A DNA stretch of 64,000 bases. Source: Komagataeibacter xylinus. GTDB taxonomy: Bacteria; Pseudomonadota; Alphaproteobacteria; Acetobacterales; Acetobacteraceae. The stretch's first letter is position 1. Each line of letters starts with the position of its first letter. The translations under genes and the position numbers were made by a program. The notes beneath the pieces are model-generated. The model did not search any database and was not told where the DNA came from. It saw only the letters and a program-made list of their open reading frames with translations. Location of the stretch: assembly GCF_031081985.1 (NCBI RefSeq), contig NZ_JARWSK010000008.1, positions 1 through 64,000 on the forward strand, read 5' to 3'. Positions 3,489 to 59,597 of this stretch are shown one piece after another.

Positions 3489-3498
3489 GTCGCATGAT
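3489..3498 (+). promoter_or_regulatory. GTCGCATGAT element upstream of the thioredoxin-fold gene
   Basis: Exact copy of the recurrent 10-mer, ending 38 nt before the ATG at 3537 and in the same orientation. Part of the set described under findings. Confidence 0.65.
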
Positions 3499-3536
3499 CA
3501 GGGCGTACAGGACATAGGTATTGTCCGGAGTCCGCC

Positions 3537-4541
3537 ATGCGCTGTTTCTACGTGTTGCCATTTCTCCTGCTCATGCACGCGCCAGCGCGAGGACAGCAAT
3601 GCTCTGTGTCTACTCCGATTGAGTCCAGGAGCGACACCATAGGGCCGACCCTGGAACATGATGATAAAGGTAGGACCGATGCAGTCGCCCACCTTGGGAT
3701 CGCAGGGGCCAACATCGAAAAACTACCCGATCTCCACGGGTTCGAAGCTGGCATCGCCCATACCCGGAACGAACTCCTCGTCTTTTTCGCTCCGGAAAGC
3801 CATGCAATCGTGCTTAGCGGCACGATGATTCCGGTACCCTACGACACCCTACGTTCACTGGCCGGGTCGCGCGCCCACGATCTCGCACCGGTCGATGGCA
3901 TCAGGGGAATGTTTGTTCGGGCAGATAATCGTTTTCAGGTCGTCTATGCGACCCCGGATGGCAAGGCAGCAGTCGCGGCCCGGATGTGGGGTGCCGCTGG
4001 ACAGGACATCACGAAAGACCAGATCAGGGGCATTCCTGGAGCCGTCCCAGAAATCAGTATCTCTGGCGCTTCATCCGACGCTAACGAACAGTCCGAGTTC
4101 CAGGGGCTCTCGGGAGGCCTTATAGGGATACCTTCCGCCCCGGAAGTCATCATGTTCATAGACCCGCAATGCATTTACTCGATGAAGGCGATGCATATCC
4201 TTCAGCCCGCAATCGATGCAGGGAAAGTTCGCCTGAAAATAGTCCCGCTGTCATTGCTTGATTACGAGGATAACGGCGCCAGTACCGTCAATGCGAGAGC
4301 CATGCTATCGCTCCCGGCAAACGAGATGGCACAAGCGTGGGTCAACGGTCGTCTAAACCCGGGATTGGCTGCACCTGAACCGGATAGTGGGGAGAAGCTT
4401 GCCCGTAATACCCGGATTGCACGGCAGATAGGGCTCACAGGGACACCAACGTTCGTCTGGATGCACCGCAATGGCGGGACCGGCCGGCTCGACGGCGTTC
4501 CCACGGATGTCGCCACATTTCTCACCTCGGTCTCGCAATGA
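3537..4541 (+). CDS. Exported thioredoxin-fold (DsbC/DsbG-like) protein with a single active-site Cys
   Basis: The 334-residue protein begins with a signal peptide (MRCFYVLPFLLLMHAPARGQ). A long N-terminal region, like the dimerisation part of DsbC/DsbG, leads to a thioredoxin fold: VIMFIDPQCIYSMKAM near residue ~211 and the cis-proline loop LTGTPTFVW near residue ~310. The usual CxxC is here CIYS, so only one active-site thiol remains. It could form mixed disulfides but not act as a classic dithiol oxidase; a holdase or conjugation-specific scaffold role is possible. It overlaps the next gene by 4 nt (ATGA). Several neighbouring exported Tra proteins carry cysteines that could be clients. 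The GTCGCATGAT element lies 38 nt upstream. Confidence 0.8.
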   Translation: MRCFYVLPFLLLMHAPARGQQCSVSTPIESRSDTIGPTLEHDDKGRTDAVAHLGIAGANIEKLPDLHGFEAGIAHTRNELLVFFAPESHAIVLSGTMIPVPYDTLRSLAGSRAHDLAPVDGIRGMFVRADNRFQVVYATPDGKAAVAARMWGAAGQDITKDQIRGIPGAVPEISISGASSDANEQSEFQGLSGGLIGIPSAPEVIMFIDPQCIYSMKAMHILQPAIDAGKVRLKIVPLSLLDYEDNGASTVNARAMLSLPANEMAQAWVNGRLNPGLAAPEPDSGEKLARNTRIARQIGLTGTPTFVWMHRNGGTGRLDGVPTDVATFLTSVSQ

Positions 4542-5074
4542 AGACACGACAGGACCAGACCGGCCCGCGGCGTTTTTTTGAAAGAACGCGCAAGGTGGCC
4601 CGCGTGGTGATTGGCGACCCACGTACATTGGTCGCCTGGTCCGATGTAACGAGGAATGCCGCGCTGATTGAAGCCCTCGGGAAGGCATTACTGAAGCCTA
4701 AAGCCGGTATGCAGGGCCCGCGGGCGCCAGACGGTACCCCTATTGATATCGCCGCGGTCGCTGCCGAATACGGCGTCGAACCCCGCGTTGTGGCGATCTT
4801 ACTCGATCAGAGACAGCATGAGACATACAGGCGGGCGCTTGCTGCCAGTATGCTCGCTGTTGTTCTGGTGCTTGGCTGGACCGGAGAAATGCTCCTTTCC
4901 CACTGGAAGGGCAGCCAACTCCTTGCTGCGCTGGAGTTCGCACCCTTCTGGACATTTCTGACACTCGTGGCGTTTCAGAACGCGTGGCTCAACTGGCAGA
5001 TCCGCGAACGCCGCCTGGGTTCCGCCCGCCAATTTGTCGCCACCGCCGACAGCCTCATTCCACGCAGGCCGTAA
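4538..5074 (+). CDS. Membrane protein, possible IcmV/TraX-like transfer component
   Basis: A 178-aa protein with a basic soluble N-terminal ~100 residues and two close hydrophobic segments (AASMLAVVLVLGWTGEMLL and FAPFWTFLTLVAFQNAWL), ending in a basic tail rich in Arg. Such an inner-membrane hairpin near dotA fits IcmV of Legionella and TraX of IncI plasmids, but the sequence similarity was not tested. The start overlaps the upstream stop (ATGA), so it is co-transcribed and probably co-translated with the thioredoxin-fold gene. It faces the dotA operon tail to tail. Confidence 0.6.
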   Translation: MKTRQDQTGPRRFFERTRKVARVVIGDPRTLVAWSDVTRNAALIEALGKALLKPKAGMQGPRAPDGTPIDIAAVAAEYGVEPRVVAILLDQRQHETYRRALAASMLAVVLVLGWTGEMLLSHWKGSQLLAALEFAPFWTFLTLVAFQNAWLNWQIRERRLGSARQFVATADSLIPRRP

Positions 5075-5125
5075 CCGCAAGTCCATCTGCTTTACGCTGG
5101 TGAATAGATAGGATTGGCGGAGCAC

Positions 5126-5431
5126 TCAGAACGTGCCGGGTGGCGCGTTCTTGTCGCCGCCCTGAGCGCCTGTTGCCCAGGAGGCATGTTCGTAATCCTC
5201 GCGCCCCGACATCGCCCGTGGATCATCAGGCCGGACGATCGTACCGGCGCGATCGTACGTAGGGGGTGTCCAGATTACACGTGTCGATCCGTAGGCCACG
5301 TGCGGATCATAACGCGCATGCCTGGTCGGGGGAGCCTTTGGGCCATGCACATGTGCAGCAGACGACACGTTGCCAGCGCTGCATGCCGCAAGCCAGGGGG
5401 AGAGGACAAGAGGTAGAATGAGATGTTTCAC
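5126..5431 (-). CDS. Small lipoprotein
   Basis: Starting at GTG 5431 (SD GGGAG), the protein opens MKHLILPLVLSPWLAACSAG, a short lipoprotein signal with lipobox LAAC, so it is expected to be acylated at Cys17. The ~80-residue mature part is His/Pro/Tyr-rich (HVHGPKAPPTRHARYDPHVA) with no known domain. It is the last gene of the dotA operon. T4BSS outer-membrane complexes contain several small lipoproteins (DotD, DotK), so a structural role is plausible but unproven. The ribosome-binding site lies inside a predicted hairpin. Confidence 0.65.
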   Translation of the reverse strand: MKHLILPLVLSPWLAACSAGNVSSAAHVHGPKAPPTRHARYDPHVAYGSTRVIWTPPTYDRAGTIVRPDDPRAMSGREDYEHASWATGAQGGDKNAPPGTF

Positions 5432-5435
5432 GAAT

Positions 5436-5457
5436 GGTCTCCCGCTTAGAGGAGACC
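5436..5457 (-). promoter_or_regulatory. Hairpin enclosing the lipoprotein ribosome-binding site
   Basis: A perfect 7-bp inverted repeat GGTCTCC/GGAGACC with an 8-nt loop. On the coding strand the 3' arm contains the GGGAG Shine-Dalgarno sequence of the gene starting at 5431. Folding would hide it and reduce translation relative to upstream genes of the operon. Confidence 0.5.
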
Positions 5458-5479
5458 ATCCTGACAAAGTATCTTGCGA

Positions 5480-5977
5480 CTAGGACTGCCGCTTTCTCCA
5501 TTCATTTTCCATGGAAAGATAGCCCCAAATCCGTCGTTCCATGTTCTCGGCTTTAGTCTTCAGCATTGTATGGTCGTCGCTAAGTCGATGGTATTTATCG
5601 TGGGCTGCCGCAAGATCGCACGCCAGGCGTTTCTCTCGGTCCCCAGCAGCCTTAAGTTGAACTGCCTGCCGCGCAGTTGCTGCATCTGCGAGAGCGAGAG
5701 TGTCTTTCAGGTCTTTGATCTGAGCCTCCAGACCAGAAGCATATTCCCTAGATCTGAGCAGATGCTCCTCAAGTCTGTCAGATTCCGCGTTCTTCTGTCG
5801 CAGTAGACTTGTCATCTGCGAAAGCAGGTGAGCAAGTTCATCGGCTTCTGTCGGTCGCGCAGGCCGTCGGCCGTAAAGCGCACGTTGTATGGAGTTCCCC
5901 AGCGTCTGTTCGTACTGGTGCGATGCACGTCCCAACATGAACGCTGCAGCCCCGCTCAGGCCACCACAGTTCGACAT
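5480..5977 (-). CDS. Coiled-coil protein downstream of dotA
   Basis: A 165-aa soluble protein whose middle two-thirds (about residues 40-145) has the heptad spacing and charge of a coiled coil (SQMTSLLRQKNAESDRLEEH, then KDTLALADAATARQAVQLKA). The start ATG 5977 has a strong AGGAGG. It begins 23 nt after dotA and is likely in the same mRNA. No family was recognised. It may be a cytoplasmic partner of the DotA-type membrane protein or a substrate-handling factor; that is inference from position only. Confidence 0.65.
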   Translation of the reverse strand: MSNCGGLSGAAAFMLGRASHQYEQTLGNSIQRALYGRRPARPTEADELAHLLSQMTSLLRQKNAESDRLEEHLLRSREYASGLEAQIKDLKDTLALADAATARQAVQLKAAGDREKRLACDLAAAHDKYHRLSDDHTMLKTKAENMERRIWGYLSMENEWRKRQS

Positions 5978-6000
5978 CTCAGTTCCTCCTGACCCTAAAG

Positions 6001-8361: not shown

Positions 8362-8384
8362 GGTTTGTCCTCCCAGCAGCACAG

Positions 8385-9797: not shown

Positions 9798-9806
9798 GGC
9801 AAACCT

Positions 9807-11964: not shown

Positions 11965-12003
11965 GGAACCTTCCTCGGGTGATTACGACGAAGGTGTCGG
12001 GCC

Positions 12004-12013
12004 ATCATGCGAC
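12004..12013 (-). promoter_or_regulatory. GTCGCATGAT element upstream of the 11964 start
   Basis: Exact copy on the minus strand, 39 nt before the ATG at 11964. It lies immediately beyond the 3' end of the upstream gene (stop at 12017). Confidence 0.65.
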
Positions 12014-12016
12014 CGG

Positions 12017-12538: not shown

Positions 12539-12548
12539 CCTTTGCGAC
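12539..12548 (-). promoter_or_regulatory. Degenerate copy of the GTCGCAWGWT element
   Basis: GTCGCAAAGG on the minus strand; only the first seven bases match. It sits 39 nt before the ATG at 12499, the same distance as in better copies, which is why it is listed. Confidence 0.35.
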
Positions 12549-12695: not shown

Positions 12696-13499
12696 ATGTC
12701 CCATGACAATGGCAAGATGCAAGCCGAGGCCTTATTTGCATCCGGCCAATTATATAGAGACATCGGGGAAATCATTTATGACAGGCGGACTGCGCTTGAC
12801 TGGACGCAGGTGCACCTCGCCAAACTGGCACGGTTGAATGTATCGGTCATACGGAGCATCGAAGCCGGTCGTCCGGTTTCCCTGGAAACATTATCGGCGC
12901 TGCTACGGGTGTTTGAGATAGATCCGCGCGATATTCTTCCGCAAGGTGCACCGGAAGGAACATGGTTTGCCCATCTGGATCTGGCGGCATCCGCCACGCA
13001 GCTGAAAAAGACCATGAAGCAGTGTTCGGACTACAATCTGGCAATCCAGAAATTACGCGACATTATTGGCAATATTTCCAAGACGTTTAACCTGCCGGAA
13101 ATACCGGCCAGATTGCCGATCGATCATTATTCACACAGTGTCGCCTTCACCTCGGGGGAACGGCAGGACCTCCTTGAGATATTTGGGCGCAGGATTCAGA
13201 TCTTCAGAACGCTTCAGGGAGCAACAGCGAGCCAGATCGCTCATAAATCGCACGTTTCCCTGACCAGCCTGAGCCTGATCGAAGCAGGGCTGAGAAATCC
13301 GAGCCTTGAAACGGTTTATCGCATTGCCGAAGGACTGTCCGTCTCCGTTTATTACCTGATCCCGGGAATACATGACGACGCAGATCTTTTGCGTTCCCTG
13401 GACATGACCGCGTGGGCAATGTCCGCGCAATCACAACTCGAAGCCCTCGCTGATCTCGAATCCATTATTGGTCACCTCGACGATATCGCAAACCACTGA
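12696..13499 (+). CDS. Regulator with two XRE-type helix-turn-helix domains
   Basis: 267 aa. An N-terminal XRE domain at ~20-75 (DRRTALDWTQVHLAKLARLN, then IRSIEAGRPVSLETLSALLR) and a second at ~150-210 (RRIQIFRTLQGATASQIAHK, then SLSLIEAGLRNPSLETVYRI), joined by a helical linker; the C-terminal ~45 residues are helical and may dimerise. Double-XRE proteins are uncommon. The gene lies between the leftward and rightward transfer operons and is transcribed rightward, divergent from the TcpQ-domain gene, a typical position for a master regulator of transfer. It is a candidate binder of the GTCGCAWGWT element, but nothing in the sequence proves this. Confidence 0.75.
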   Translation: MSHDNGKMQAEALFASGQLYRDIGEIIYDRRTALDWTQVHLAKLARLNVSVIRSIEAGRPVSLETLSALLRVFEIDPRDILPQGAPEGTWFAHLDLAASATQLKKTMKQCSDYNLAIQKLRDIIGNISKTFNLPEIPARLPIDHYSHSVAFTSGERQDLLEIFGRRIQIFRTLQGATASQIAHKSHVSLTSLSLIEAGLRNPSLETVYRIAEGLSVSVYYLIPGIHDDADLLRSLDMTAWAMSAQSQLEALADLESIIGHLDDIANH

Positions 13500-13747: not shown

Positions 13748-14626
13748 ATGAAGTCAGCATCGTTCGGCCAGGTCATAAAACACGGTCTGTTTACATGGCT
13801 TCAGACCTATCCCACGCCAGAAATGACGCGCGCCCTCTATGCCAGGCTGTGCGACGAAGTCCTTGTAGCGACAATGCTTACCCTGACAGTGCAGGAGGTA
13901 AAGGAGTCAGTCGCGCAATGGGCCAACCGACCCCAGAATGTTTTTTATGAAGCGCCTGCACGCAGGGGAGCATGGACAAGGACCCAGTTGCTCATCCTTG
14001 GCCAACGCTGGCTCTGTGGTGATAAAACCGCCGACATAGCTGAGATGCTTGGCCGCTCGGCCGGGAGCGTGCGTGCAAAAAGAAAGCAGCTTGGCCTGCC
14101 ACCGCGCATCAGGCTCTCAAAAATACAGGCGGAGACCATACTTGCCGAAAAGCGGAGCGCCATTCCCGCAGATCCCGAAGCTGTCCTGACATGGGAACAG
14201 GCCTCCCTGCTTCCTCATGAAGCCCGGCGGGGACGGACATGGCTTGTCAGGAAGAGCCTCAACAGGCTGACCCTCACAGGACATAAGGGAGGAGACAAGG
14301 TACGGTGGCACGAGGCCGCCAACATTGAAATCGCATACCGCCATTTTGCATTTCAGAACCCGCGTGAAATTGCGCGGGACTTCCTTATTTCGGAAAGCGC
14401 GCTGAAATCCCAAAGCTGCTGGGAACAGCTTCCGCCACGACGCGGCGCCAAAGTGCCCTGGTTCATTCACGCGAGGGCCGAATATTATATCGGCGAACAC
14501 CACTACATCCGGCGGGAATGCCTCTGCAAGAGCGGATGCTTTTTCTGGACCACCCGCAAGGGTGGTGACCGGGTCAGCAGACGATACCGCCGCAGCATTG
14601 CCGCCACGCATGGCATTGCCGCCTGA
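13748..14626 (+). CDS. GcrA-like HTH regulator
   Basis: 292 aa. Residues ~75-120 (RGAWTRTQLLILGQRWLCGD then KTADIAEMLGRSAGSVRAKR and KQLGLPPR) resemble the N-terminal HTH of alphaproteobacterial GcrA (WTDERVELLKKLW..., tri-helical, R-x-L/H-GL ending). GcrA works with sigma-70 RNA polymerase at -10 regions of methylated promoters. A second helical segment at ~200-235 (IEIAYRHFAFQNPREIARDF) may be another HTH, and the tail is Arg/Lys-rich with three close Cys (ECLCKSGCFFW) that could bind metal. It lies alone between the XRE gene and dotI; a role in controlling the transfer genes is a reasonable inference. It is longer than chromosomal GcrA (~175 aa). Confidence 0.65.
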   Translation: MKSASFGQVIKHGLFTWLQTYPTPEMTRALYARLCDEVLVATMLTLTVQEVKESVAQWANRPQNVFYEAPARRGAWTRTQLLILGQRWLCGDKTADIAEMLGRSAGSVRAKRKQLGLPPRIRLSKIQAETILAEKRSAIPADPEAVLTWEQASLLPHEARRGRTWLVRKSLNRLTLTGHKGGDKVRWHEAANIEIAYRHFAFQNPREIARDFLISESALKSQSCWEQLPPRRGAKVPWFIHARAEYYIGEHHYIRRECLCKSGCFFWTTRKGGDRVSRRYRRSIAATHGIAA

Positions 14627-14661: not shown

Positions 14662-14671
14662 GTCGCAAGAT
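14662..14671 (+). promoter_or_regulatory. GTCGCAAGAT element upstream of dotI
   Basis: One-base variant (T to A at position 7) in the sense orientation. It ends 87 nt before dotI, but only 47 nt before a short leader frame at 14719. Confidence 0.6.
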
Positions 14672-14718
14672 AGACTTCCAGCCTGCTCTCATCACCGTCG
14701 GGAAATGAGAGTAGAGTG

Positions 14719-14772
14719 ATGACCACCTTTTTTCATGCCCCCGTAAGGGAGGCGCGCCATGCGGCTGTTTAA
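14719..14772 (+). CDS. Possible 17-aa leader peptide overlapping the dotI start
   Basis: ATG 14719 reads MTTFFHAPVREARHAAV and stops at 14770-14772, inside the dotI coding sequence. The dotI Shine-Dalgarno sequence (AAGGGAGG) lies inside this frame, so ribosomes reading it would pass over the dotI initiation site. The distance from the GTCGCAAGAT element suits a normal leader. No strong SD precedes it. It may couple or tune dotI translation; it could equally be chance. Confidence 0.25.
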   Translation: MTTFFHAPVREARHAAV

Positions 14773-17623: not shown

Positions 17624-17633
17624 GTCGCATGAT
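17624..17633 (+). promoter_or_regulatory. GTCGCATGAT element downstream of dotG
   Basis: Exact copy, 14 nt after the dotG stop and 42 nt before the ATG at 17676. It implies a second transcript start inside the dotI-dotO series. Confidence 0.65.
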
Positions 17634-17675
17634 ATCGGCGAATTCTGCACTCTCTACCAGAAGGCAGCATTCACC

Positions 17676-20261: not shown

Positions 20262-20271
20262 GTCGCATGTT
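20262..20271 (+). promoter_or_regulatory. GTCGCATGTT element upstream of dotP
   Basis: One-base variant (A to T at position 9) in the sense orientation, 56 nt before the dotP ATG at 20328. It would restart transcription after the mini-operon insertion. Confidence 0.6.
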
Positions 20272-20327
20272 ACTGGCCGAAGACTCCTCCGAGGGACATG
20301 CCTCCCTCTTTAACGGAGCCCTTGACC

Positions 20328-20798
20328 ATGAACCTCTCTCGCACAAGCATCCCCGACACGGGGCGATTGACGCGTCTCGTGACCAAACGGGTCGGATACA
20401 GCCAGCGTGCCGTCACGGCACTTGGCACATTGGCCGTCCCGATCCTCATTGCCAGCCATGCGCTGGCCCAATCCGCAACCGGCAGCGCAAACGGTATCGG
20501 GGCCCAGATGCAGGCCACCGCCCAGGAGGGGCTGACAGCGGGCGGCTTTGTCGCTGCAGCATGCATGTATGTCGCTGCCTTCATCTGCTTCATCGGCGGC
20601 GTATGGGCGGCCTGGCAGAGCCGCAACGAACAGAACCGTTCGCCCGGAAAGGTCGGTATGGCAATCGCCGGCATCGTGCTGTGCGGTCTTTTCGCAACGG
20701 GTCCGCAGTGGATCAACAAGGCTGCCAACACCGCGTCCGGTGGCTCGGCAACCGTTGGTACGCAGGCTCAAGCCTATCAGTTCACGAGCGGCGGCTAG
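20328..20798 (+). CDS. dotP: DotP/IcmD/TraR-like small membrane protein
   Basis: 156 aa from ATG 20328, preceded by GGAG (an upstream ATG at 20298 has no better signal). Signal-like segment LGTLAVPILIASHALAQSAT, then two TM helices (GGFVAAACMYVAAFICFIGG and GMAIAGIVLCGLFATGP) joined by WAAWQSRNEQNRSPGK. Size, topology and position before dotN/dotO match IcmD/DotP. It is related in sequence to the dotE product. Confidence 0.8.
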   Translation: MNLSRTSIPDTGRLTRLVTKRVGYSQRAVTALGTLAVPILIASHALAQSATGSANGIGAQMQATAQEGLTAGGFVAAACMYVAAFICFIGGVWAAWQSRNEQNRSPGKVGMAIAGIVLCGLFATGPQWINKAANTASGGSATVGTQAQAYQFTSGG

Positions 20799-28599: not shown

Positions 28600-28609
28600 G
28601 TCGCAAGAT
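28600..28609 (+). promoter_or_regulatory. GTCGCAAGAT element upstream of dotD
   Basis: One-base variant in the sense orientation, ending 36 nt before the dotD ATG at 28646. It marks the head of the second transfer block. Confidence 0.65.
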
Positions 28610-28645
28610 GATCTTCGAAGCTTCTCCCATCATCCGGAGAAGCTC

Positions 28646-41217: not shown

Positions 41218-44200
41218 CTAGCTGGCGGCGCCTGGCGACGCAGATGGCACAGGGGGACGCCTGCCCAGCACCTGAGCGGCCCGTTGGTTCCGAAGCGTCT
41301 GCTCTGCACCCGTCATGACCGCTGGTGCGTTCCTGATCATGACCTCCAGTCTGGCGTCGATCTCGGCCAGACGCGCCTTATGCAAGCGCTCGGCCTGCCG
41401 CGCCTGAGTTTCCAGAATAATCTCCCTTCCGTATGGGCGACCTGACTTCATCAGTGTCTCCTGCGTGCGTCCAAGCGCGATCAGTTCGCGGATCCTCGCA
41501 TCCCGGGCCTTGCGGGTTCGGGCAACCAGATCCGTGCCCAATGATTTATAGGGTTTATGCGCCATTTTCTTTGCCACGTGGTTCCACAGATCGTCACTGG
41601 TGATGGGCGTGGTATCCCCGAGCGGCCTCTGGTTCCGGACCGCCTCAAACGTCGCGCCATCGGAGATCATGGTCCATGTGGTTCCACGCGCCCGGCTTTC
41701 CGCGACGTATGAGGTAAATCCCGTCGCCAGTTCGACGCCTCGCGGCAGGGCATTGATATGCTCATCGGAAGTAAGCCCCTGTGCCGCATCAATCGTCATG
41801 GCATGTCCGAACCCGAGCAGTACCCGACCAGTCTTCACATCACGAAACCGCCGCCATTCGACATCGGCAACAAGCCCGTCCTTCGTGCGAACGCGAAGCC
41901 CCGCATCGCCATGGGCCAGAACCTCCACCACATCACCGTTATTTCCGACTGTGGCGCCCTTTCCATCCACACTGCCCCATGTCCGACGATACAGCCGAAG
42001 CCGGTCGCCCATAGCGATCGCAAGATCATAGGTTTCGCCGCGCTGATCAATAGCCTGCACGGTGATTTCATGCGTCGAGATCTCGCCGCGCTCCTGCAGG
42101 ATTGTACGGACTGCCCGACTCAGATCGGCAGCATCCTGATTGGTCAGTGCCGACATGCTGATCGTCTTGGTCCGACCACGCCGCAGGCCGGCACCCTCGG
42201 CGGCCAGGGCATCGCGACGCGTCACATACAGCCGGGCAATATCCTGCAGGACTTCCTCATGGTCGCCGCCGACCAGACGGATCGTTCCATCCGCCCGTTT
42301 CATATCAATCGCGTCCCGGACTTCCTTCAGATGGAACCTGTTACGGACGTCGTCATCATTTTCCTCGTCGGTATGCGCGTTGGCCGCAGCCCCCTTGAAC
42401 TCGTGGGATTCCAGATCGCTCTCTTCCGGCTCTGCGCCACGAAACAGATCAGCAATCTGGCGATTTCTTGCAGATACCTGCCGGACACTGGACAGAAGCT
42501 CAGGCATATCTTCCGGATCCAGGACCCGGCGCAGCATCTCGATGGCGTCCCCTGCCTCGATATTCTGCGCCTGCTCGTGGTCACCCAGCGCCTTGATCGT
42601 GCAACCGGTATCGCGCTGCAACTGTAACAGGCGAAGCATCTGGCGCGGGCCGACCTGACCGACCTCGTCAATCACCAGCACCGTATTCTGGTCCACATCA
42701 ACGTCACCGCGCTCCAGCCGCGCCAAAAAGGGCAGCATCGCGCTTGTGTCAAAGATGCCGGCCTCACGTAATGCGTCCGCCTGGCGCCAGGCATTGGCAA
42801 TCCCGATAACCCTGCGACCATTCGTGTCATAACGCGTATCATGTTTCCACGCATCAACCAGCGGAGACAGCAGGGCCGTCTTCCCGGAACCCGCGACGCC
42901 GGTGAGCATGGAGAGCGCACCGCCCCGGCCAAGAGCGTAGATCGCAGCCTTCTGGGTCTTTCCATGCTCGCTTGCGAAGTCGAGGGGTGATCGTCCGATC
43001 GCTTCCGTGATCTGGCGGTCCGACAGCGCCCCGCTCCGGTCTCCTGAAGCACGAGCCGCCTGAATCGCGAGGTCCTCCTCAATGGCGATCTGCGCGGAAT
43101 TCGTCACCCTCAGCCTGTCGCCACGCATCTCCTGAATCAGCGAGACCCGTTCCCCGCCGAGTTCAAGACCACGCTGTTCAATAAGGGCCACGACATGATC
43201 AATGTCCTTCACGCCACCCTCGATGCCGGTGCCGATCAGGCCCCGGGCCGCATACGTTCTGAGCTTGTCGTGATCGATCACGGCGGCTGTTTCAAACTCC
43301 CTCGCGAGATGGCGCGCAGCGAAACGGTAGGCAATATCGTATCGTTGTTCCCTGGCGCCCACGGGCGCTACTGGCGTGCCAAGCAGACTTTTTTTCTCCC
43401 AGCCAAGACGCCTGGCCTGCTCGTGCCATATCTCATGGTCACTCGTACCTTTGTCCTTGTCGAGCCGGGCTGCCAGGCCGGCCATGGACAGGATGCGGCG
43501 CTTGCGTTCGATCGGCATATGCGCCCAGTCCGCTCCTTCCGCCGCGGCATACTCCTTGGCCGCCCTGATGACGTTGCGTCGTCCCTTGCTGAAGAAATCC
43601 GATATATCCTGCGGCACGGCCGAGATGACCGTCGCCTGTTCACTCGCATCGTATTGCTGGGCGATGCCGATCCGGCGCAGTTCATCGGCGAGCTGTGCCT
43701 GGAAATATGCTCCAAATTCGTGAACGCGCGATCGCAGCCGCTTCGTGTCGAGTGAACCCACATGTCCCTCTTCCGTAACCACGACATTGAACAGGGCATT
43801 ATGGATATGGGCATGGGGATCGCCGCCTGCTGGCGTATCGATCAGATAGGTCTGACCTGTCCCCGCGTCACGCGCCTCGACCGTCGGGCGCGCGGTATCA
43901 TGCCGGAATGACACCCAGGCGACCTCGCCCGGGTTGGCACCGTCTTCGCCCCCATGACCGCGCCGCGCGAAGCCGATTTCCCGCGCGACATAGAGCATGG
44001 TGGCGTCGTTTGCCCGATCAATGGCGTGCCAGATGGCTGCCCTCTCGGCCTCGGTCGGCGCAAACTCGGCCGCAAGCGTAACTGATTTGTGTGGCGCCAG
44101 GGTCAGATCATAGGCACTGATCTTGCGGGCATTCCTTGACCAGTCATCGCCATTATCGGCCCTCTTTGCTTCAAACAGGCGATTGAGTTGCGCGTTCTTA

Positions 44201-44738: not shown

Positions 44739-44757
44739 CCCGTGTCAGAAACACGGG
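44739..44757 (-). promoter_or_regulatory. Hairpin adjacent to the relaxase-operon ribosome-binding site
   Basis: 7-bp perfect stem (CCCGTGT/ACACGGG, 5-nt loop). On the coding strand its 3' arm runs into the G-rich ribosome-binding site of the gene starting at 44729. It could limit relaxase-operon translation or end the HU transcript. Confidence 0.45.
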
Positions 44758-44771
44758 AAGCGTGACGCGGA

Positions 44772-44781
44772 ATCATGCAAC
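44772..44781 (-). promoter_or_regulatory. GTTGCATGAT element upstream of the relaxase operon
   Basis: One-base variant (C to T at position 3) in the sense orientation, 42 nt before ATG 44729 (36 nt before the in-frame GTG at 44735). It lies in the short gap before the HU stop codon. Confidence 0.5.
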
Positions 44782-45137: not shown

Positions 45138-45890
45138 TTATGATTTCTCTCGGGTAGGCACGATGACGCTGCGGGACAGGTCCACCCCGATGCGAATGGC
45201 GTCATCAAGCTGGCGACCGATACCACTCTGCAAGACGGCGGAGCAATACATCGCCCCGTCGATTTTGCAGCATACGCTCCAGACCGACCCGATCAGGTTC
45301 ATGGCGTGAACCAGCCCCTCCACGTCGTGACGATCCAGATCGCGAATGAACTGATGAGGATCAACCTCCTCAATGTATGGCTCCTGTCCCGGCATCACAA
45401 AAACCATGTGAGGACCAGGCCGCGAAAGACGCCTGAGAAGATCCATCTGACTGCTGGTGACTGTAAGTTGCACGGCACTTCCGGGGCATCCGCCGGGGAT
45501 ATAGGCACCGGTTCGACTGATCTGTGGCATCACCTCTCCGGTAATCCAGCGCCGAACCCGTTTGGCAACAGGCTTTCGAGAAATGAACGTCAGGTGATTG
45601 GCTCCGCTTTCACTGACGAAGAGCTGTTCCTGCGTCCCGCCTGCCGTCACCACGCCAATACGGCAATATTCATCATCATCAAGCCGTTTGACCGTCGCAG
45701 AAGGATTGCTGAGGCCCAATATGGAGCAAATCTCCCGCGCCGAGATCCATCGCCTTCCGGTGACTTCCTGAACTGAGATCCGGGTGTCTTCAAATGTCAG
45801 ATAGTCTCGTTCGCTTTTATGCAGAATAGGTTGAACCGGATCACTGACCGGCTTCCTGACTCGCGGCCTGTTAGGGATGGTATCTCGCAT
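45138..45890 (-). CDS. BRO-N domain protein
   Basis: 250 aa. Residues ~30-130 are a BRO N-terminal DNA-binding domain, as in phage antirepressors: YLTFEDTRISVQEVTGRRWI, SAREICSILGLSNPSATVKR, LDDDEYCRIGV, LFVSESGANHLTFISRKPVA and KRVRRWITGEVMPQI. The C-terminal ~110 residues contain no known domain. It is transcribed leftward from the oriT-side region, with a GTCGCATGTT element 39 nt upstream, so it is controlled like the tra genes. A role as a transfer regulator or defence antagonist is inference. Confidence 0.85.
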   Translation of the reverse strand: MRDTIPNRPRVRKPVSDPVQPILHKSERDYLTFEDTRISVQEVTGRRWISAREICSILGLSNPSATVKRLDDDEYCRIGVVTAGGTQEQLFVSESGANHLTFISRKPVAKRVRRWITGEVMPQISRTGAYIPGGCPGSAVQLTVTSSQMDLLRRLSRPGPHMVFVMPGQEPYIEEVDPHQFIRDLDRHDVEGLVHAMNLIGSVWSVCCKIDGAMYCSAVLQSGIGRQLDDAIRIGVDLSRSVIVPTREKS

Positions 45891-45929
45891 CTCATATCTC
45901 CCCTTTTCCTAAGGAGATTGTGCGCGGGG

Positions 45930-45939
45930 AACATGCGAC
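45930..45939 (-). promoter_or_regulatory. GTCGCATGTT element upstream of the BRO-N gene
   Basis: One-base variant in the sense orientation, 39 nt before ATG 45890. Confidence 0.6.
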
Positions 45940-48236: not shown

Positions 48237-48246
48237 GTCGCATGAT
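48237..48246 (+). promoter_or_regulatory. GTCGCATGAT element upstream of the second transglycosylase
   Basis: Exact copy, ending 38 nt before GTG 48285, in the sense orientation. Confidence 0.65.
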
Positions 48247-48284
48247 GCTGGCCGATCCTGTCCGCCTCGCAACAGGAGGCCAAG

Positions 48285-50989: not shown

Positions 50990-51174
50990 GCGGGAACCAT
51001 TTCCCTCCCCACAAATAAAGAATAGTACGAACAGAATATAAATTCAATAAAAAAGACAATATATTAGAAGTAAACATTAGTTTACTACTGTTTTTATTCC
51101 ATTTATTTCCTTATGCCCATTTTATTAATCGCAGTATTATTATGTATTGCATAAGTATTGATCCTGAAGAACCC

Positions 51175-51307: not shown

Positions 51308-51445
51308 CTGTTGAACAGAGATGTTTCCCGAACCGGGCCTTCCGGGAGAGGCGGCTATAACCAGACGCCCAGGACTTACGCCGCGTTTTGCGGGCATGCG
51401 CTGCAGGGACACAGATCCAGTTCATCTGTGACCCGCGACATGACT

Positions 51446-52263: not shown

Positions 52264-52276
52264 GGTCTTCTCCATT

Positions 52277-53296: not shown

Positions 53297-53376
53297 GATG
53301 TCTGCTCCTGTGTTGATGAAGGAGAACAGTGAGCATTATGCTAGGTTCGGACAAGAACGCACTTTTAACGCCCATA

Positions 53377-53392
53377 GTATCGGAAATGATAC
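53377..53392. promoter_or_regulatory. Operator candidate for the HxlR-type regulator
   Basis: Inverted repeat GTATC-N6-GATAC immediately upstream of the hxlR ATG and between the divergent genes. HxlR-type dimers bind such short palindromes, so autoregulation plus control of the oxidoreductase is likely. Confidence 0.55.
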
Positions 53393-53396
53393 CGTC

Positions 53397-53810
53397 ATGG
53401 CCCGTATCCGGCATAAATCACTTGATTGCAGTCCCGGCTGTGCCGTTGAAGCGACGCTTCAGCTGATCGACGGGAAATGGAAAGGAGTGATCCTCTACCA
53501 CCTGCTCGAGGGAACCCTGCGCTTTAACGCGATCCGCAGGCGCCTGCCCAATATCACCCAGCGCATGCTGACGGCGCAGCTCCGCGAACTGGAGCAGGAC
53601 GGGTTTGTCCTGCGGACGGTCTACGCCGAGGTGCCCCCGAAGGTGGAATACAGCCTGACGCCGCGGGGGCGGACCCTAGAGCCGGTCATCATGGCCCTCA
53701 AGAAATGGGGGGACGAGAATACCGGGTTCAGACGGGATCCTGAATCCCCTGCGGAACTGGACGAGCCTGCCGCCGATTGTCCGGTCTCCTGCATTCAGGC
53801 TGGCGGTTGA
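53397..53810 (+). CDS. HxlR-family winged-helix regulator
   Basis: 137 aa from ATG 53397. Full HxlR domain: CAVEATLQLIDGKWKGVILY, HLLEGTLRFNAIRRRLPNIT, QRMLTAQLRELEQDGFVLRT, VYAEVPPKVEYSLTPRGRTL. Two N-terminal Cys (SLDCSPGC, C11 and C15) match the thiol-sensing position of YodB/HypR-type proteins, so it probably senses quinones, aldehydes or hypochlorite. It is divergent from the oxidoreductase operon. The C-terminal Cys (DCPVSC) are unusual extras. Confidence 0.92.
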   Translation: MARIRHKSLDCSPGCAVEATLQLIDGKWKGVILYHLLEGTLRFNAIRRRLPNITQRMLTAQLRELEQDGFVLRTVYAEVPPKVEYSLTPRGRTLEPVIMALKKWGDENTGFRRDPESPAELDEPAADCPVSCIQAGG

Positions 53811-53901
53811 GCGGGCACTATTGGTGATCCGCATCCACGCTGCAGACATGTACCCGGCCCCTCACCCGGAACATACACGGTTCCCAATACATCCAGCTGC
53901 A

Positions 53902-53911
53902 GTCGCATGAT
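53902..53911 (+). promoter_or_regulatory. GTCGCATGAT element upstream of the NERD gene
   Basis: Exact copy in the sense orientation, 53 nt before GTG 53965 (17 nt before the alternative ATG 53929). Confidence 0.6.
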
Positions 53912-53964
53912 GGACAGATATACGGGACATGCTATCGGACCGTGGAACCACAGGGGAAGACTGC

Positions 53965-54570
53965 GTGGCAAGACTTCGACGTCATCGCGTGAAGCCTTCC
54001 GGCAGCTGCCGCCTGACGGCCCATGAGGCGCAGGTCTGGCGATCCTTTCGCGCCGCCATCCAGGGCGAGAAAGGAGAGAGCGCCGTAGCCCATGTGCTCG
54101 ACCGGAGCGGCCTGGCCGTGCTGCACGACGCCATACTGCCGACGGGTGACGGCAGGACGACCCAGATTGACCACCTGTTCCTCAGCCCGCGGGGCATCCA
54201 TGTCGTGGAGACAAAGCGGTATGGCGGCGAACTGACCGGACACCCGGAAGATGAACGGTGGCGGCAGCGTTTCGCGGGCGAGGCGCCCGACGTCCCGCCC
54301 CGGCTGATTTACAGCCCGGTGATGCAGAATGCCGCCCATTGCCGGGCCGTCTACGCGCTGGCCCGCCTCTTGGACCCGACCATCCAGGTCTTCAGCCACG
54401 TCGTGATGACGGGAACTGCGGTCCTGTCACCTGCGCTTGTCGCCTGCACCCTTTCCCTTTCCGAGCTGGAAACCCTGCTACATGGTCTTGAGCGCAACGT
54501 GCCGCGGGGCACACTGACTGACGCATGGCGGCGCATCGGGCTGGCCTGCCATGCCAGCAGGCATCAGTAA
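53965..54570 (+). CDS. NERD-domain (nuclease-related) protein
   Basis: 201 aa from GTG 53965, preceded by AGGGGAAG; ATG 53929 is an alternative. NERD core: IQGEKGESAVAHVLDRSGLA, then TQIDHLFLSPRGIHVVETKR and YGGELTGH, giving the D...E-x-K type nuclease residues (ID and ETK). NERD proteins are weakly characterised nucleases, common on plasmids and in DNA-processing modules. Its regulation by the transfer motif and its position in the leading region suggest a role in DNA uptake or processing in the recipient. Confidence 0.85.
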   Translation: MARLRRHRVKPSGSCRLTAHEAQVWRSFRAAIQGEKGESAVAHVLDRSGLAVLHDAILPTGDGRTTQIDHLFLSPRGIHVVETKRYGGELTGHPEDERWRQRFAGEAPDVPPRLIYSPVMQNAAHCRAVYALARLLDPTIQVFSHVVMTGTAVLSPALVACTLSLSELETLLHGLERNVPRGTLTDAWRRIGLACHASRHQ

Positions 54571-54998
54571 GCGGCCTCCCTGTCGAGAAAATCGAGCAGT
54601 TCCGCGATTTCCGCAGTTGAAAGCATACGCCCGCGACAGGCCTCACTATCGCGGGGAAAATCGAGCGGCTCACCACCATGGTCACGGTTGCCCGCACTGA
54701 TCCAGAGTACACGCTCCGGCTCCTCGGGATCATAATCAAGGCGAACCCCGAGGCCATCTCCAAGGTCGATGAAATCGGAGAACAGGTCGTCCTCACACCG
54801 AAGCGGAAGCGTGCCGATTTCCACACCGATCCATCTGTCGGGAAATCTGGCCCGGAGAAGGTCGGCGAGCTGGCGCGTATGCAGCCTGAGATCCGTCGGA
54901 TCCCGGACGGGCGGCGGTGGCTCCAAGGGCTGCAGGAAGACCGCCTCGTCATCATCCCAGTCATCGGGCTCAATCGGCGGCACCGGCTTTTTCGCCAT
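54564..54998 (-). CDS. Acidic Pro-rich hypothetical protein
   Basis: 144 aa from ATG 54998. N-terminal acidic/Pro-rich stretch (KPVPPIEPDDWDDDEAVFLQ, then EPPPPVRD), followed by a mixed alpha/beta half (TRQLADLLRARFPDRWIGVE, LFSDFIDLGDGLGVRLDYDP, ERVLWISAGNRDHGG). No family recognised. It overlaps the NERD gene by 7 nt tail to tail. Confidence 0.55.
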   Translation of the reverse strand: MAKKPVPPIEPDDWDDDEAVFLQPLEPPPPVRDPTDLRLHTRQLADLLRARFPDRWIGVEIGTLPLRCEDDLFSDFIDLGDGLGVRLDYDPEEPERVLWISAGNRDHGGEPLDFPRDSEACRGRMLSTAEIAELLDFLDREAAY

Positions 54999-55128
54999 AA
55001 AGCAGACGTCCTTCGACCAAAAGAAAAGCAATTTAAGACCGAAGCGTCGGACGGAACCAGCCTGTTTGGTGCAATGCCCCGGCCACGCGAACGCATGTCG
55101 CCGCTGCCGAAGCATGCATTGTCCGCAT

Positions 55129-57180: not shown

Positions 57181-57821
57181 AGCTCTTCCAGCCCTTCCGC
57201 CACGCAACCCGGGGTGGTAGTGATCTTACCGGTCGAGAGCAGGATCGTCGCCGGATAGGAAAGATCCCAGTTCCCAAGCTGACCTTCCCAGCGTCCATCG
57301 ATAACCAGGCCGACAGGACAGCCCAGCCGCTCGTAGAGGCGGACTGCACTTTGCGGTATCGGGGGATCATCTTCTGCCTGCGCCAAACGCTGGCGCAGGT
57401 GGCGGTTCCAGATGCCTCGAGCCGGGCGCGAGCGGGCAAACGTCCGTGCAAGGTCTGCCTTCATCGCCAGACGCGCGATCCCCCGATCCGCATAGTCTGA
57501 AACATATCCCATGACCCTCTCCTGTGTGAGATGATCCTGCGCGCAGGACCGTTCGGCGCCCACCTCTGTGGCATGCCAGCCGTAAATGACGATCATCCCG
57601 TGATCGTCGGCGAAGGAGGCAATGCGGCCTGCCAAGTCCCGGCCTCGAGCCATCGAGGCCGCGCGTTGCCCCGCAATCGACGCGCCACGTATTTCCGCAT
57701 ATCCGTCGCCCCTGGCAGCAGGGCCGTTCGTGCATGCACACAGGCCCGCATATGTTCGGACAAAGCCTGCAGCCCGCGATGCCGTCTGTCCGGTGAGCCC
57801 AAAGGACTCACGCTGGTTCAC
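57177..57821 (-). CDS. Hypothetical protein between Toprim and helicase genes
   Basis: 214 aa from GTG 57821 (GTGA overlap with the Toprim stop). Two-part layout: an N-terminal region rich in Ala/Gly (AGFVRTYAGLCACTNGPAAR) with a mid helical patch, and a C-terminal compact domain (IPQSAVRLYERLGCPVGLVI, DGRWEGQLGNWDLSYPATIL). No catalytic motif was identified. Tight coupling to both neighbours suggests a DNA-processing partner. Confidence 0.6.
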   Translation of the reverse strand: MNQRESFGLTGQTASRAAGFVRTYAGLCACTNGPAARGDGYAEIRGASIAGQRAASMARGRDLAGRIASFADDHGMIVIYGWHATEVGAERSCAQDHLTQERVMGYVSDYADRGIARLAMKADLARTFARSRPARGIWNRHLRQRLAQAEDDPPIPQSAVRLYERLGCPVGLVIDGRWEGQLGNWDLSYPATILLSTGKITTTPGCVAEGLEEL

Positions 57822-59017
57822 AAGGACAGCCCCGGCGATGAACCTGACCGTGGTCCGGCAGGCTTCCCGACAGGTTCAGACGAAGCAGGCAATGAGGCGT
57901 CCGAAACCCGCGGCGGCCGCTGCGTGCCGTGTGCCTCGGCCTGACCCAGCCATGACGGGGAAACCGTCTCCGGTTGCGCTTTCGACCCTGAACCCAGGAC
58001 TTCGGACAGGCGGCACAAGGGCGCAACGGGAACAGAACCTGCCTGCATTCCTTCCCTGCGGGTCCTCAGGACCGCGTTCCAGTCCTCTCCGGGCCCCTTC
58101 GGAGATACCCGTCCTGACCAGAGACCGACGTCTTGTGCCATCGCAGCGAATTTCCCGGCATAACGATCCCCCTGCAGGTCGTTATCAACGGCAACAACCA
58201 GTCGCGCTTCAGGCTGGGCGGCGACCTGCATCATGACCCGTTTCAGGTTCGCTTCGCTCTCTGGGCTCATGCCGCCACCCGTCGAGGTATAGAGCGTTCC
58301 TTTGTGGAAGCGATCGAGTGCTGCAAAGGACAGTGCATCAATGGCCGCCTCGGTGACGACAAGGCGCGTCACGGGTTCTTCTCCCCCGTCGGCCCGGAAA
58401 CCGAAGAGACGCTTGCCAACGCCGCCTGTCGAAAACCCCTTGTAATCCGGCCCCCGCATTTCCATCCCGGTGAACTGCCCGTCCGCATCCCGGTGGCCGA
58501 ACCAGGCGGTTCCGTGCGGGCCTTCCTTCAGCGCCCCCTGCTGTCCGGCAATCGCGATAATATGGTCGGGCAACCCACGGATCTCCGTCAGATAGCGCCA
58601 TGCAGCCGTCCCCTGCCCGGGTGCGGTGCGACGGTTCCACAGTTTAGCGGGATCGCGCCGCGGTCTGTCAGCGGCTCCCTTCGTACGCTCGACAACTTCG
58701 AGCGTCGGGCTCCTGCCGACCAGGGCGCGAAGTTCCTGCCTGACATGACCGAGGTTCTTCGAGGGATCGAGATACTGGACAAGCTTGAAGACATCGCCCT
58801 TGCCGTCGCCTTTCGGGTCCCACCAGCCCTTGCCATCGTGATTGACAATAATGGCCTCACTGTCACGGCGAAATTTCAGGTTACGGGCGGAACGCTGCGC
58901 GGTAGCCTGCCGATCCAGCCGGAACCCGGCTTTCTCCAGAACAACGGCGCAGTTTACAGCATTGCGAAGCTCATCAAGTTCTCTTTGCTGTGCTTCTGGG
59001 GAAGACGTGTAAGCCAT
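57818..59017 (-). CDS. DUF3991 plus Toprim-domain protein
   Basis: 399 aa from ATG 59017, preceded by AGGAG. N-terminal part with the primase-like zinc-free region (NLKFRRDSEAIIVNHDGKGW, WDPKGDGKGDVFKLVQYLDP), central DUF3991 fold (TAWRYLTEIRGLPDHIIAIA) and a Toprim segment (RLVVTEAAIDALSFAALDRF; ARLVVAVDNDLQGDRYAGKF) with the Glu and the D-x-D of Toprim catalysis. Plasmid proteins of this type are thought to be primases or DnaG-like factors that prime the incoming strand, which fits the leading-region location. Confidence 0.88.
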   Translation of the reverse strand: MAYTSSPEAQQRELDELRNAVNCAVVLEKAGFRLDRQATAQRSARNLKFRRDSEAIIVNHDGKGWWDPKGDGKGDVFKLVQYLDPSKNLGHVRQELRALVGRSPTLEVVERTKGAADRPRRDPAKLWNRRTAPGQGTAAWRYLTEIRGLPDHIIAIAGQQGALKEGPHGTAWFGHRDADGQFTGMEMRGPDYKGFSTGGVGKRLFGFRADGGEEPVTRLVVTEAAIDALSFAALDRFHKGTLYTSTGGGMSPESEANLKRVMMQVAAQPEARLVVAVDNDLQGDRYAGKFAAMAQDVGLWSGRVSPKGPGEDWNAVLRTRREGMQAGSVPVAPLCRLSEVLGSGSKAQPETVSPSWLGQAEAHGTQRPPRVSDASLPASSEPVGKPAGPRSGSSPGLSL

Positions 59018-59597
59018 GAAAGACACTCCTTCACGAACAGCATGGATTGTGTTTCAGACCGCTCCGGTATTTACGGTGAGTATTTGAGATGATCGCGCGG
59101 AAACACACGACGACCTCTGTATGGTTCGTCGAGATATTGCGTCCTGATGATCCGCGTTGAGGATTTTTATTCTGCGTGAACTGCAAAAGAATACAGGACG
59201 CACGAATGGCCGCAGTTTACGCGCGGCAGCAAACGGCACGTGCCCGCGCCACTGCGCACGCATTACCGGGACTATGGACGAGCGGGCATTCACGACGTCA
59301 GATACTCCCTGTGGAGGATCCTGCCTGCGCCCACATCATGCGACTGACGAAAAAATAAGGTTCACGAGCCCGTATAAAGGTCGATGGAGAAACAGGAGAG
59401 ACACAGTTCATCCCCGATGTGGACGGACGACCGGCGTTCCGGTGTCGGCCGACAGGCTTTCCCGATCGCCCGCGCCATCAGGCCTGTCAGTCCTCACAAG
59501 TATTCATGACGGGAACTGGCGCGGCAGAAACCGCACTTTCTTCTCCCTGAACGGGCAAAATGCTCCGGGTCGTTGACGACCCGGAACACCGCGCGGC
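59018..59597. other. Intergenic region upstream of the Toprim gene
   Basis: About 580 nt. A GTCGCATGAT element (59335-59344) points left and would give a transcript with a ~315-nt leader before the Toprim gene, or one starting the short basic frame at 59293-59054. That frame has no good SD and no family resemblance. No other feature is supported. Confidence 0.45.
59335..59344 (-). promoter_or_regulatory. GTCGCATGAT element, leftward
   Basis: Exact copy on the minus strand, 317 nt before the Toprim start and 41 nt before a GTG-initiated 79-codon frame. It probably drives the Toprim-helicase operon. Confidence 0.55.

Follow-up and report, generated by a model that had tools for sequence, protein, structure and literature searches.

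In T4 middle promoters, a MotA box near -30 replaces the -35 element, at a distance of 12 ± 1 bp to the sigma70 -10 hexamer, as described in the available part of PMC2988021. GcrA acts on promoters of the housekeeping sigma factor, which it activates according to the excerpt of PMC7403470. Hairpins that hide the Shine-Dalgarno sequence in RNA arriving from upstream, with the proper promoter of the gene placed in the 5' arm, are described in the accessible sections on T4 gene e (PMC3014915) and on the sigG leader of B. subtilis (PMC5942855). In IncI1, plasmid-encoded TraB/TraC regulate a transfer region of MPF_I type (PMC10286972, in part), and a lax -10 (nAtnnn) is given for Gluconobacter in the excerpt of PMC5756330. 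For the plasmid group considered here, the literature found, as far as its text was available, names no transfer regulator.

The window, that is the whole stretch of 64,000 nucleotides analysed here, represents the transfer region in a plasmid of Komagataeibacter type. Its transfer operons are preceded by the 10-mer GTYGCAWGWT, which very probably marks a sigma70-type promoter class common to them.

Occurrence of the 10-mer

Exact copies of the 10-mer number 12 in the 64-kb window, far beyond the 1.35 ± 1.20 expected by chance from 100 dinucleotide shuffles (largest count, 5). The source genome (3.53 Mb in 16 contigs) contains 48 exact copies, 12 of which fall within the window, representing 1.8% of the genome. 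Both comparisons confirm the original prediction, which put chance occurrence at about one copy in 64 kb. Allowing one mismatch, 37 matches are found against 28.9 expected, and 7 of the 100 shuffles get that high; the contrast is thereby lost, and the 'lower-scoring' copies that had been included are unfit for counting by eye. Two more exact 10-mers are located on the plasmid contig outside the window (82993 and 146394, both on the minus strand), and -11 is A in each case. Downstream of one of them an ORF of about 100 aa opens 28 nt past the T, and the other is without an ORF; we judge both to be chance matches.

All 11 strong sites originally listed are exact, with correct places and strands, and a 12th (5471-5480, minus strand) had been overlooked. 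The sites point at genes of transfer units, and none stands just upstream of hipBA, the aminotransferase gene, fic or the HxlR gene (a label of the original prediction), in line with what had been claimed. The sites are as follows, with predicted starts inferred from the position of the -10:

3489..3518, plus strand: promoter of gene 3537, whose product gives a weak DsbA-like match; box 3489-3498, -10 region 3506-3511 with A present and T absent, predicted start ~3518
5451..5480, minus strand: the promoter overlooked earlier; box 5471-5480, -10 CAGGAT 5463-5458, predicted start ~5451, gene start GTG 5431
11984..12013, minus strand: promoter of an operon that begins with gene 11964 and leads to the DotA/TraY-position gene; box 12004-12013, -10 CACCTT, predicted start ~11984
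14662..14691, plus strand: promoter of the operon DotI-DotH-DotG, in which DotI starts at 14759; box 14662-14671, -10 CAGCCT, long leader
17624..17653, plus strand: promoter of the operon from 17676 (TraP position); box 17624-17633, -10 AATTCT
20262..20291, plus strand: promoter of the operon from 20328 (TraR position, then DotO); box 20262-20271, -10 with A present and T absent, longer leader, weak folding signal
28600..28629, plus strand: promoter of the DotD-DotC-DotB operon (28646); box 28600-28609, -10 GAAGCT
44752..44781, minus strand: promoter of the gene before, and of, the TrwC-type relaxase; box 44772-44781, -10 CACGCT
45910..45939, minus strand: promoter of a gene that encodes a Bro-N domain and starts at 45890; box 45930-45939, -10 CACAAT, weak folding signal
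48237..48266, plus strand: promoter of gene 48285; box 48237-48246, -10 GATCCT
53902..53931, plus strand: promoter of the NERD-domain gene; -10 with A present and T absent, weak folding signal
59315..59344, minus strand: promoter ahead of a 79-aa ORF (GTG 59293); -10 with A present and T absent, no folding signal
12539..12548, minus strand: weak copy GTCGCAAAGG, without composite promoter

Because a good copy is found at the position of the weak one in two Acetobacter plasmids, the copy at 12539 is probably a decayed site. The distance from box to start codon is near-constant. Four sites had been set apart for their long leaders: two of these, 53902 and 59335, shorten with a moved start (for 53902, the gene probably starts at 53965, where a GTG in frame was identified by eye), and the other two, 20262 and 14662, are truly longer.

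Promoter layout and its conservation

More specifically, 12 bp separate the core (G/T)TCGC from the lax sigma70-like -10 hexamer NANNNT downstream of it, and there is no conserved -35. All 12 window sites have A at the -11 place and 8 additionally have T at -7. The composite pattern, box-12-NANNNT, occurs 10 times in the 3.53-Mb genome, 8 times within the window, while the reversed-pattern control gives 0 matches. The list of spacing-12 matches in the window also holds one non-exact 10-mer, at 42005 on the plus strand.

In plasmids of Acetobacteraceae, Beijerinckiaceae and Methylocystaceae, orthologous operons have the same layout ahead of them; the element is conserved upstream of orthologous tra genes, as anticipated. 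Relatives keep the core and differ in its flanks by lineage, the box variants being GTCGCAWGWT, GTCGCATCAT, AGTCGCAGAT, CGTTCGCACC and ATTCGCGC; in pGOX1-type relatives, the box reads TCAC and stands at the equal 12-bp spacing. Per-locus motif EM gave weak solutions in many loci (occupancy 0.87-0.95, for example in the window, G. albidus, R. gilardii and p3-AD3), and 6-mer counts and explicit patterns were used in its place. In 12 of 16 loci, the top-ranking word in unbiased 6-mer counts upstream of genes contains (G/T)TCGC. For the window gene that follows 5471, the start was set to 5437 (GTG 5431 is better), placing one leader end off by 6 nt in these counts, in site pooling, in Shine-Dalgarno folding, in the first swap test and in the start-enclosure and neighbour analysis.

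Positions of the -10 were counted from the T of TCGC. At least 135 raw sites were reduced to 101 according to how far they lie from the start and which bases adjoin the core, without reference to the -10. In this pool, A is found at +17 in 86% and T at +21 in 87% of sites, defining the conserved -10; 83 sites have both, 11 have one and 7 have none. We also examined spacing in further loci. From 60 related loci, gathered by DotI similarity inside this clade, 38 were dropped before counting (29 near-duplicates and 9 sharing at least 5% of 24-mers with a discovery locus). In the remaining 22, a spacing of 12 yields 119 gene-start matches distributed over 21 loci (L105 has no site), compared to 8-23 for each of the other spacings from 5 to 19. 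With the gene filter off, the preference is less sharp (268 matches at spacing 12 versus 63-189). These unfiltered counts rise where the spacing differs from 12 by a multiple of three, a pattern to be expected from codon rhythm.

The fixed 12-bp spacing to a lax -10 looks like that of an activator box, which on sequence grounds would occupy about -29 to -20 and stand in for the -35. The original prediction of a shared promoter or operator element of transfer units, devoid of a conserved -35, stands, and the 10-mer as a switch of conjugation is plausible. What it had overlooked are the lineage variants, the fixed spacing and the complementarity of the -10 region to the Shine-Dalgarno region. 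CATGAT, which it had put forward as a possible -10, was rejected: the hexamer is confined to Komagataeibacter and Kozakia/Acetobacter variants, whereas A+17/T+21, further downstream, occur in all five lineage groups.

Complementarity between the -10 and Shine-Dalgarno regions

At most sites, the stretch from the -10 to the predicted start is complementary to the Shine-Dalgarno region of its own gene, promoter by promoter. Native halves fold at -12.9 kcal/mol and swapped halves at -8.5 kcal/mol (n=58, ten diverged loci; 0 of 5000 permutations). A second swap test on 96 further sites, out of the 119 test sites, gave -14.25 and -9.83 kcal/mol, respectively (0 of 5000 permutations), such that the native advantage is 4.4 kcal/mol in two data sets. 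Batches of control genes (288 of 621 used) differ by 0.1-0.6 kcal/mol; one batch of three reached a z of -2.7, yet with a difference of -0.64 kcal/mol.

A base pair encloses the predicted start at 69 of 72 sites, and the innermost 5' base of the hairpin has its median at +27, one base before the predicted start. Removing the 5' arm lowers the cost of unfolding the Shine-Dalgarno region by 6.1 kcal/mol, compared to 1.25 kcal/mol in control genes, and leaves the leaders less structured than those of control genes. In the window, folding z is below -1.9 at 7 of 12 sites and above -1 at four. At site 5471 a long stem surrounds the predicted start (~5451), and because of the long leader at 14662 the hairpin there is not on the DotI Shine-Dalgarno sequence. 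We dropped the hairpin as a plain 5' leader of the native RNA, since A+17/T+21 puts the predicted start in the loop.

The hairpin is not significant in pGOX1-type relatives (n=13, z -1.2). A purine at the predicted start was not replicated (A 45% in the first set, 22% in the second). Close-pair covariation, covering 14 of 18 planned pairs, was uninformative and no better than slid controls (129 unchanged, 11 one-sided, 1 both-sided, 15 broken). An Rfam search of the window returned three sub-threshold matches, none at the sites.

Taken as predicted, the hairpin is rather likely to be a regulon-wide lock on read-through translation, like that of T4 gene e. A simple read-through story predicts otherwise than what is seen where the upstream neighbour is divergent: with neighbours assigned from start positions only, hairpins are about equally strong at 17 divergent (-11.7) and 55 co-directional sites (-13.35; p 0.17). 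Such hairpins at divergent promoters would suit another purpose within the same promoter class, either in the single-stranded DNA form during transfer or as a guard against pervasive transcription. We consider this unlikely, as the 3' arm covers the Shine-Dalgarno region, and hairpins occur on genes of either strand, which is evidence against a function in a single transferred strand. It is more doubtful still that box and hairpin act together at the RNA level in the native leader, with a small RNA or an RNA-binding protein opening or closing the structure. Strong structure at the Shine-Dalgarno sites and the steady distance of the box from the start codon would fit this, but the strict A/T at -11/-7 with fixed spacing is the signature of a -10, and the low structure of leaders lacking the 5' arm speaks against it.

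Candidate regulators and related systems

The original prediction had named two proteins for binding tests, and these are the right regulators to test:

13748..14626, plus strand: candidate activator upstream of dotI; has a GcrA-like HTH plus, as judged by eye, additional HTH-like segments
12696..13499, plus strand: second candidate, a regulator of the XRE type that has two HTH stretches and is syntenic in TCGC lineages

The 13748 gene has no exact box of its own within the window. Of the 60 related loci, 57 have a homolog upstream of dotI at a distance of at most about 1.1 kb, the other three being contigs that end before that position; because all 60 loci were gathered by DotI similarity inside one clade, this co-occurrence partly reflects shared descent. 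Two distant DotO plasmids have neither a spacing peak nor a 13748 homolog in the stretches examined. The DNA-binding segment aligns with chromosomal GcrA (hhalign, 52 aa, E 6.3e-7) and with GcrA in the PDB (7ye1/5yiu, E 5e-8). At E<=1, 7 of 15 homologs match PF07750 in Pfam (best 5.9e-6); the matches of the window protein by itself do not include it. The alignments span the DNA-binding part and linker only; the sigma-interacting C-terminal domain of GcrA was not found in 13748. GANTC is not enriched within -12..+24 of the core (7 of 83 sites versus 7 of 83 upstream controls; 9 of 119 test sites). The 13748 protein is probably the activator reading the box.

The XRE protein could instead read it, as an activator or as a repressor whose operator lies in the promoter spacer, with 13748 acting elsewhere. 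In TCGC loci it is conserved as well as 13748, syntenic in 57 of 60 with truncated contigs accounting for the 3 misses. Its profile, however, finds no match in the pGOX1-type stretches L016, L026 and L027, where the TCAC box at 12 bp occurs together with 13748 homologs (L016, a row of the profile itself; L026, E 7e-17; L027, split). The box is also short, non-palindromic and fixed relative to the -10, as one would expect for an activator contacting polymerase, and we regard the XRE reading as decidedly unlikely. An alternative sigma factor, for which box and -10 would be the two promoter elements, would explain the fixed spacing, and the second HTH-like stretch of 13748 has a weak likeness to ECF sigma region 4 (E 0.04). 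Sigma factors usually have a longer spacing than the 12 bp between core and -10 seen here. Moreover, the plasmid contig carries no Sigma70_r2 gene, all five of the genome being on other contigs, and the -10 pattern fits the lax nAtnnn of Gluconobacter in the excerpt of PMC5756330. Altogether, a sigma factor seems highly improbable.

We therefore favour, with a probability of roughly 60% on sequence analysis, a combination of plasmid activator, -35-less promoters and read-through lock acting on the transfer operons. One plasmid-encoded activator would switch on these operons through the shared promoter class: the 13748 protein would bind the box at -29 to -20 via its GcrA-like HTH and hold RNA polymerase on the weak -10, the box thereby taking the place of a -35. 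RNA entering from upstream would fold and hide the Shine-Dalgarno sequence, while RNA begun at the activated promoter would start in the hairpin loop, lack the 5' arm and be translated. Synthesis of transfer proteins would thus be largely confined to times when the activator fires the individual promoters. More tentatively, at slightly less than even odds, most transfer promoters may carry a two-key lock, in which a GcrA-derived, methylation-independent activator is combined with a hairpin; since the -10 region also forms the 5' arm, only promoter-started RNA would be translated well, and box and activator would co-evolve by lineage with the layout fixed.

The plasmid group concerned is widespread and belongs to vinegar, kombucha and methanotroph bacteria; this reading proposes for it a master switch of transfer that can be put to the test. 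In addition, box-12-NANNNT with a self-complementary leader provides a search pattern for transfer genes of unannotated plasmids. If true, a GcrA-like DNA-binding fold is used by a mobile element without a methylation code, and the hiding of ribosome sites in read-through RNA, known from single phage and sporulation genes, becomes the rule for most promoters of a regulon.

Compared to T4 middle promoters, as far as the available text describes them, the plasmid promoters share the layout of a box 12 bp upstream of a sigma70-like -10 without a -35. The box sequence differs, the plasmid system is an operon regulon of conjugative plasmids, and MotA/AsiA is not among the Pfam matches of 15 homologs of 13748 or of 30 window proteins scanned. 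GcrA of Caulobacter and other Alphaproteobacteria has a related HTH segment, but measures 173 aa, whereas the 13748 family spans roughly 240-510 aa with its additional HTH-like segments (by eye), no recognised sigma-interacting domain and no GANTC enrichment at its promoters. IncI1 TraB/TraC, in the accessible account, resemble the present case in being plasmid-encoded transfer control and differ in host group. Finally, the predicted hairpins are arranged like the leaders of T4 e, soc, 49 and I-TevI and of B. subtilis sigG in the excerpts at hand; the pairing of DNA upstream of the start with the Shine-Dalgarno region is shared as set averages, not at every site. Those cases are reported there gene by gene, whereas the plasmid hairpins extend to most of a regulon's promoters, across several lineages.

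The box word and its lineage versions

The window contains 12 exact matches to GTYGCAWGWT, whereas shuffled sequence yields 1.35 ± 1.20 (0 of 100 shuffles reach 12). All eleven sites listed in the original prediction are exact copies, and its list lacked a twelfth, 5471 on the reverse strand. The whole genome (3.53 Mb) holds 48 copies, so a quarter of them fall within 1.8% of the DNA. Searching with one mismatch comes close to noise (37 observed vs 28.9). An additional 100 kb of this contig contains two 10-mers.

The window encodes a Dot/Icm-like (MPF_I) transfer system with a TrwC-type relaxase, product names of the transfer genes being taken from the annotation of relatives. Six plasmid records, five from Komagataeibacter and one from Novacetimonas, match a 25-kb query at 96.5-97.9% identity over 80% or more of its length. 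A DotO search retrieved syntenic plasmids from Kozakia (72%), Acetobacter (70%), Gluconobacter (66%), Roseomonas (56-58%), Lichenicola and Methylocapsa (57%), and Methylosinus, Methylocella and Beijerinckia (56-54%), together with a distant group of pGOX1 type (37-39%). The sites that had been proposed to mark transfer transcription units are conserved upstream of orthologous tra genes: every lineage keeps a form of the word of its own, at the same position.

Versions of the box by lineage
Komagataeibacter: GTCGCAWGAT
Kozakia and Acetobacter: GTCGCAT(G/C)AT
Gluconobacter: AGTCGCAGAT
Roseomonas: CGTTCGCATC or CGTTCGCACC
Lichenicola: CGTTCGCNCC
Methylocapsa and kin: ATTCGCGC

An unbiased count of 6-mers whose first base lies 28-62 nt before a gene gives top rank to a (G/T)TCGC-containing word in 12 of 16 loci. 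The overlapping TCGCAT ranks second in Kozakia and the overlapping CCGTTC first in R. mucosa p3-AD3; Beijerinckia and pGOX1 do not show the (G/T)TCGC word in this count.

A plasmid gene for a DUF2312 protein has a box upstream in four Kozakia, Acetobacter and Gluconobacter plasmid loci (L009 12810-, L017 1555-, L011 778-, L023 713-). DUF2312 corresponds to the GapR family of DNA-binding proteins (Pfam PF10073), and a nucleoid-type protein in the transfer regulon is possible; the only PF10073 gene of the window's own genome is on another contig (C14). The annotation of Kozakia pKB16680_1 (L009, 15224-17577) lacks the DotA-to-DotG segment of the transfer genes, adjoining an IS21 element, and several remaining operons nevertheless retain boxes. 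The window's left end holds, at 1192-1860 (-), a gene for a ROS/MUCR-type regulator (PF05443, E 3.8e-42).

A predicted -10 element at fixed spacing

Aligning 101 of 135 raw sites on the T of TCGC brings out two further columns that each of the five lineage groups conserves: overall, 86% of the sites have A at +17 and 87% have T at +21. Lying four bases apart, these are by their sequence the -11 and -7 bases of a predicted -10 hexamer, and the pattern agrees with the lax -10 nAtnnn reported for Gluconobacter (PMC5756330). The absence of a -35 box at the normal distance, as originally noted, holds across the alignment, where no column at the -35 place reaches 0.3 bit apart from those adjoining the core. 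All 12 window sites have A+17, and 8 have T+21 as well. Of the ten copies of the composite GTYGCAWGWT-N8-ANNNT found genome-wide, eight fall in the window; its reversed pattern does not occur at all, and the additional 100 kb of contig has no composite gene-start match.

Further loci were gathered by a DotI search with one genome per species (60 loci), from which near-duplicates and those sharing at least 5% of 24-mers with loci already used were removed, leaving 22. For each s from 5 to 19 we counted the (G/T)TCGC-Ns-NANNNT matches that have a Shine-Dalgarno-like sequence and then a reading frame behind them. Spacing 12 gave 119 matches in 21 of the 22 loci and any other spacing 8 to 23, which fixes the position of the box at roughly -29 to -20, ahead of a weak -10. 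In the pGOX1 group NTCAC takes the same spacing (14 matches vs 1-8 at others), the core 12 bp from NANNNT being CACTCAC in pGOX1 itself (L016) and GTCACAAC in L027. The peak is absent from the distant DotO plasmids of M. extorquens AM1 and Bosea. We conclude that a promoter class with fixed box-to--10 geometry is real and conserved. T4 middle promoters, with a MotA box 12 ± 1 bp from the -10 (PMC2988021), share this architecture.

The candidate regulator

Upstream of dotI lies the gene at 13748-14626 (13748), whose family was analysed with 15 homologs at 17-39% identity to the window protein. A segment of this family matches the genome's own chromosomal GcrA (hhalign E 6.3e-7) and solved GcrA (E 5e-8). 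In 57 of the 60 loci a homolog sits at most about 1.1 kb upstream of dotI, the contigs of the other three ending before that point; because all were gathered through DotI within one clade, part of this co-occurrence reflects shared descent. The XRE regulator gene (12696) is present in the same 57, so presence alone cannot separate the two in TCGC lineages. The pGOX1 group retains a diverged 13748 homolog (L016, a profile row; L026, E 7e-17; L027, split), and its stretches read gave no match to XRE. In these three loci box and homolog have diverged jointly. No 13748 homolog was found in 43-kb stretches of the M. extorquens AM1 and Bosea plasmids.

The plasmid contig carries no sigma factor gene. 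13748 is not GcrA in the strict sense, since no sigma-binding domain is visible and GANTC occurs no more often at the promoters than in the sequence upstream. A GcrA-like activator encoded by the plasmid is the probable switch of the promoter class. The family has another HTH-like segment (profile positions 175-250), which weakly resembles ECF sigma region 4 (E 0.04). In R. mucosa p2-AD3 (L020 12845+) a box core lies 72 nt upstream of the 13748 homolog itself, which suggests autoregulation there and not in the window.

Self-complementary leaders

Folded from +12 to the start codon, the 101 sites give a mean z of -1.92 against shuffles, compared with -0.22 for 509 control genes (p 1e-16). Across 72 sites, pairing runs high over +20 to +26 and again over +37 to +45, with its minimum at +30 to +33. 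To exclude -10 and Shine-Dalgarno composition as the cause, the upstream half of one leader was joined to the downstream half of another: native leaders reach -12.9 and swapped ones -8.5 kcal/mol (n=58, ten diverged loci; 0 of 5000 permutations), with at most 4 of 5000 reaching the native value in each of five lineage groups. For 96 of the 119 further sites the values are -14.25 and -9.83 kcal/mol (0 of 5000). Control genes, taken in three batches of 96, show differences of 0.1, 0.1 and 0.6 kcal/mol.

At 69 of 72 sites the predicted start is enclosed by a base pair; the innermost 5' base of the hairpin has its median at +27, one base before that start. Without the sequence 5' of the predicted start, the Shine-Dalgarno region costs 6.1 kcal/mol less to open (1.25 less in control genes), and the leader that remains is freer than in controls (4.6 vs 6.5 kcal/mol). 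A preference for A at the predicted start, seen in the first site set, is absent in the second. Within the window z falls below -1.9 at 7 of 12 sites and exceeds -1 at four (20262, 45930, 53902, 59335); at 14662 the hairpin lies so far upstream that it does not reach the Shine-Dalgarno sequence of DotI. Plasmids of the pGOX1 group show the promoter layout and no clear hairpin. By eye, longer leaders (window 20262-20328; the same leader in relatives' loci L011, L013, L014 and L015) have an additional short hairpin that lies after the box and before the start codon, of GAGGG..CCCTC kind in the first three relatives and of other sequence in L015.

Coupled to the promoter class, these leaders look like read-through locks: RNA entering from upstream would hide the ribosome site in the hairpin, and RNA beginning at the predicted start would leave it open. 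Divergent and co-directional promoters have hairpins of about equal strength, so selection cannot come solely from read-through out of neighbouring tra genes; pervasive transcription or inserted elements may contribute. Precedents for such locks are T4 gene e, which operates in this manner, its longer RNA yielding 100-fold less lysozyme (PMC3014915), and the B. subtilis sigG leader, for which a large hairpin has been proposed as a translation block for read-through RNA from PspoIIG (PMC5942855). Activator-box promoters and read-through-blocking leaders are known kinds; what would be new here, and directly testable, is their regulon-wide use, with the lock-type design spread over most promoters.
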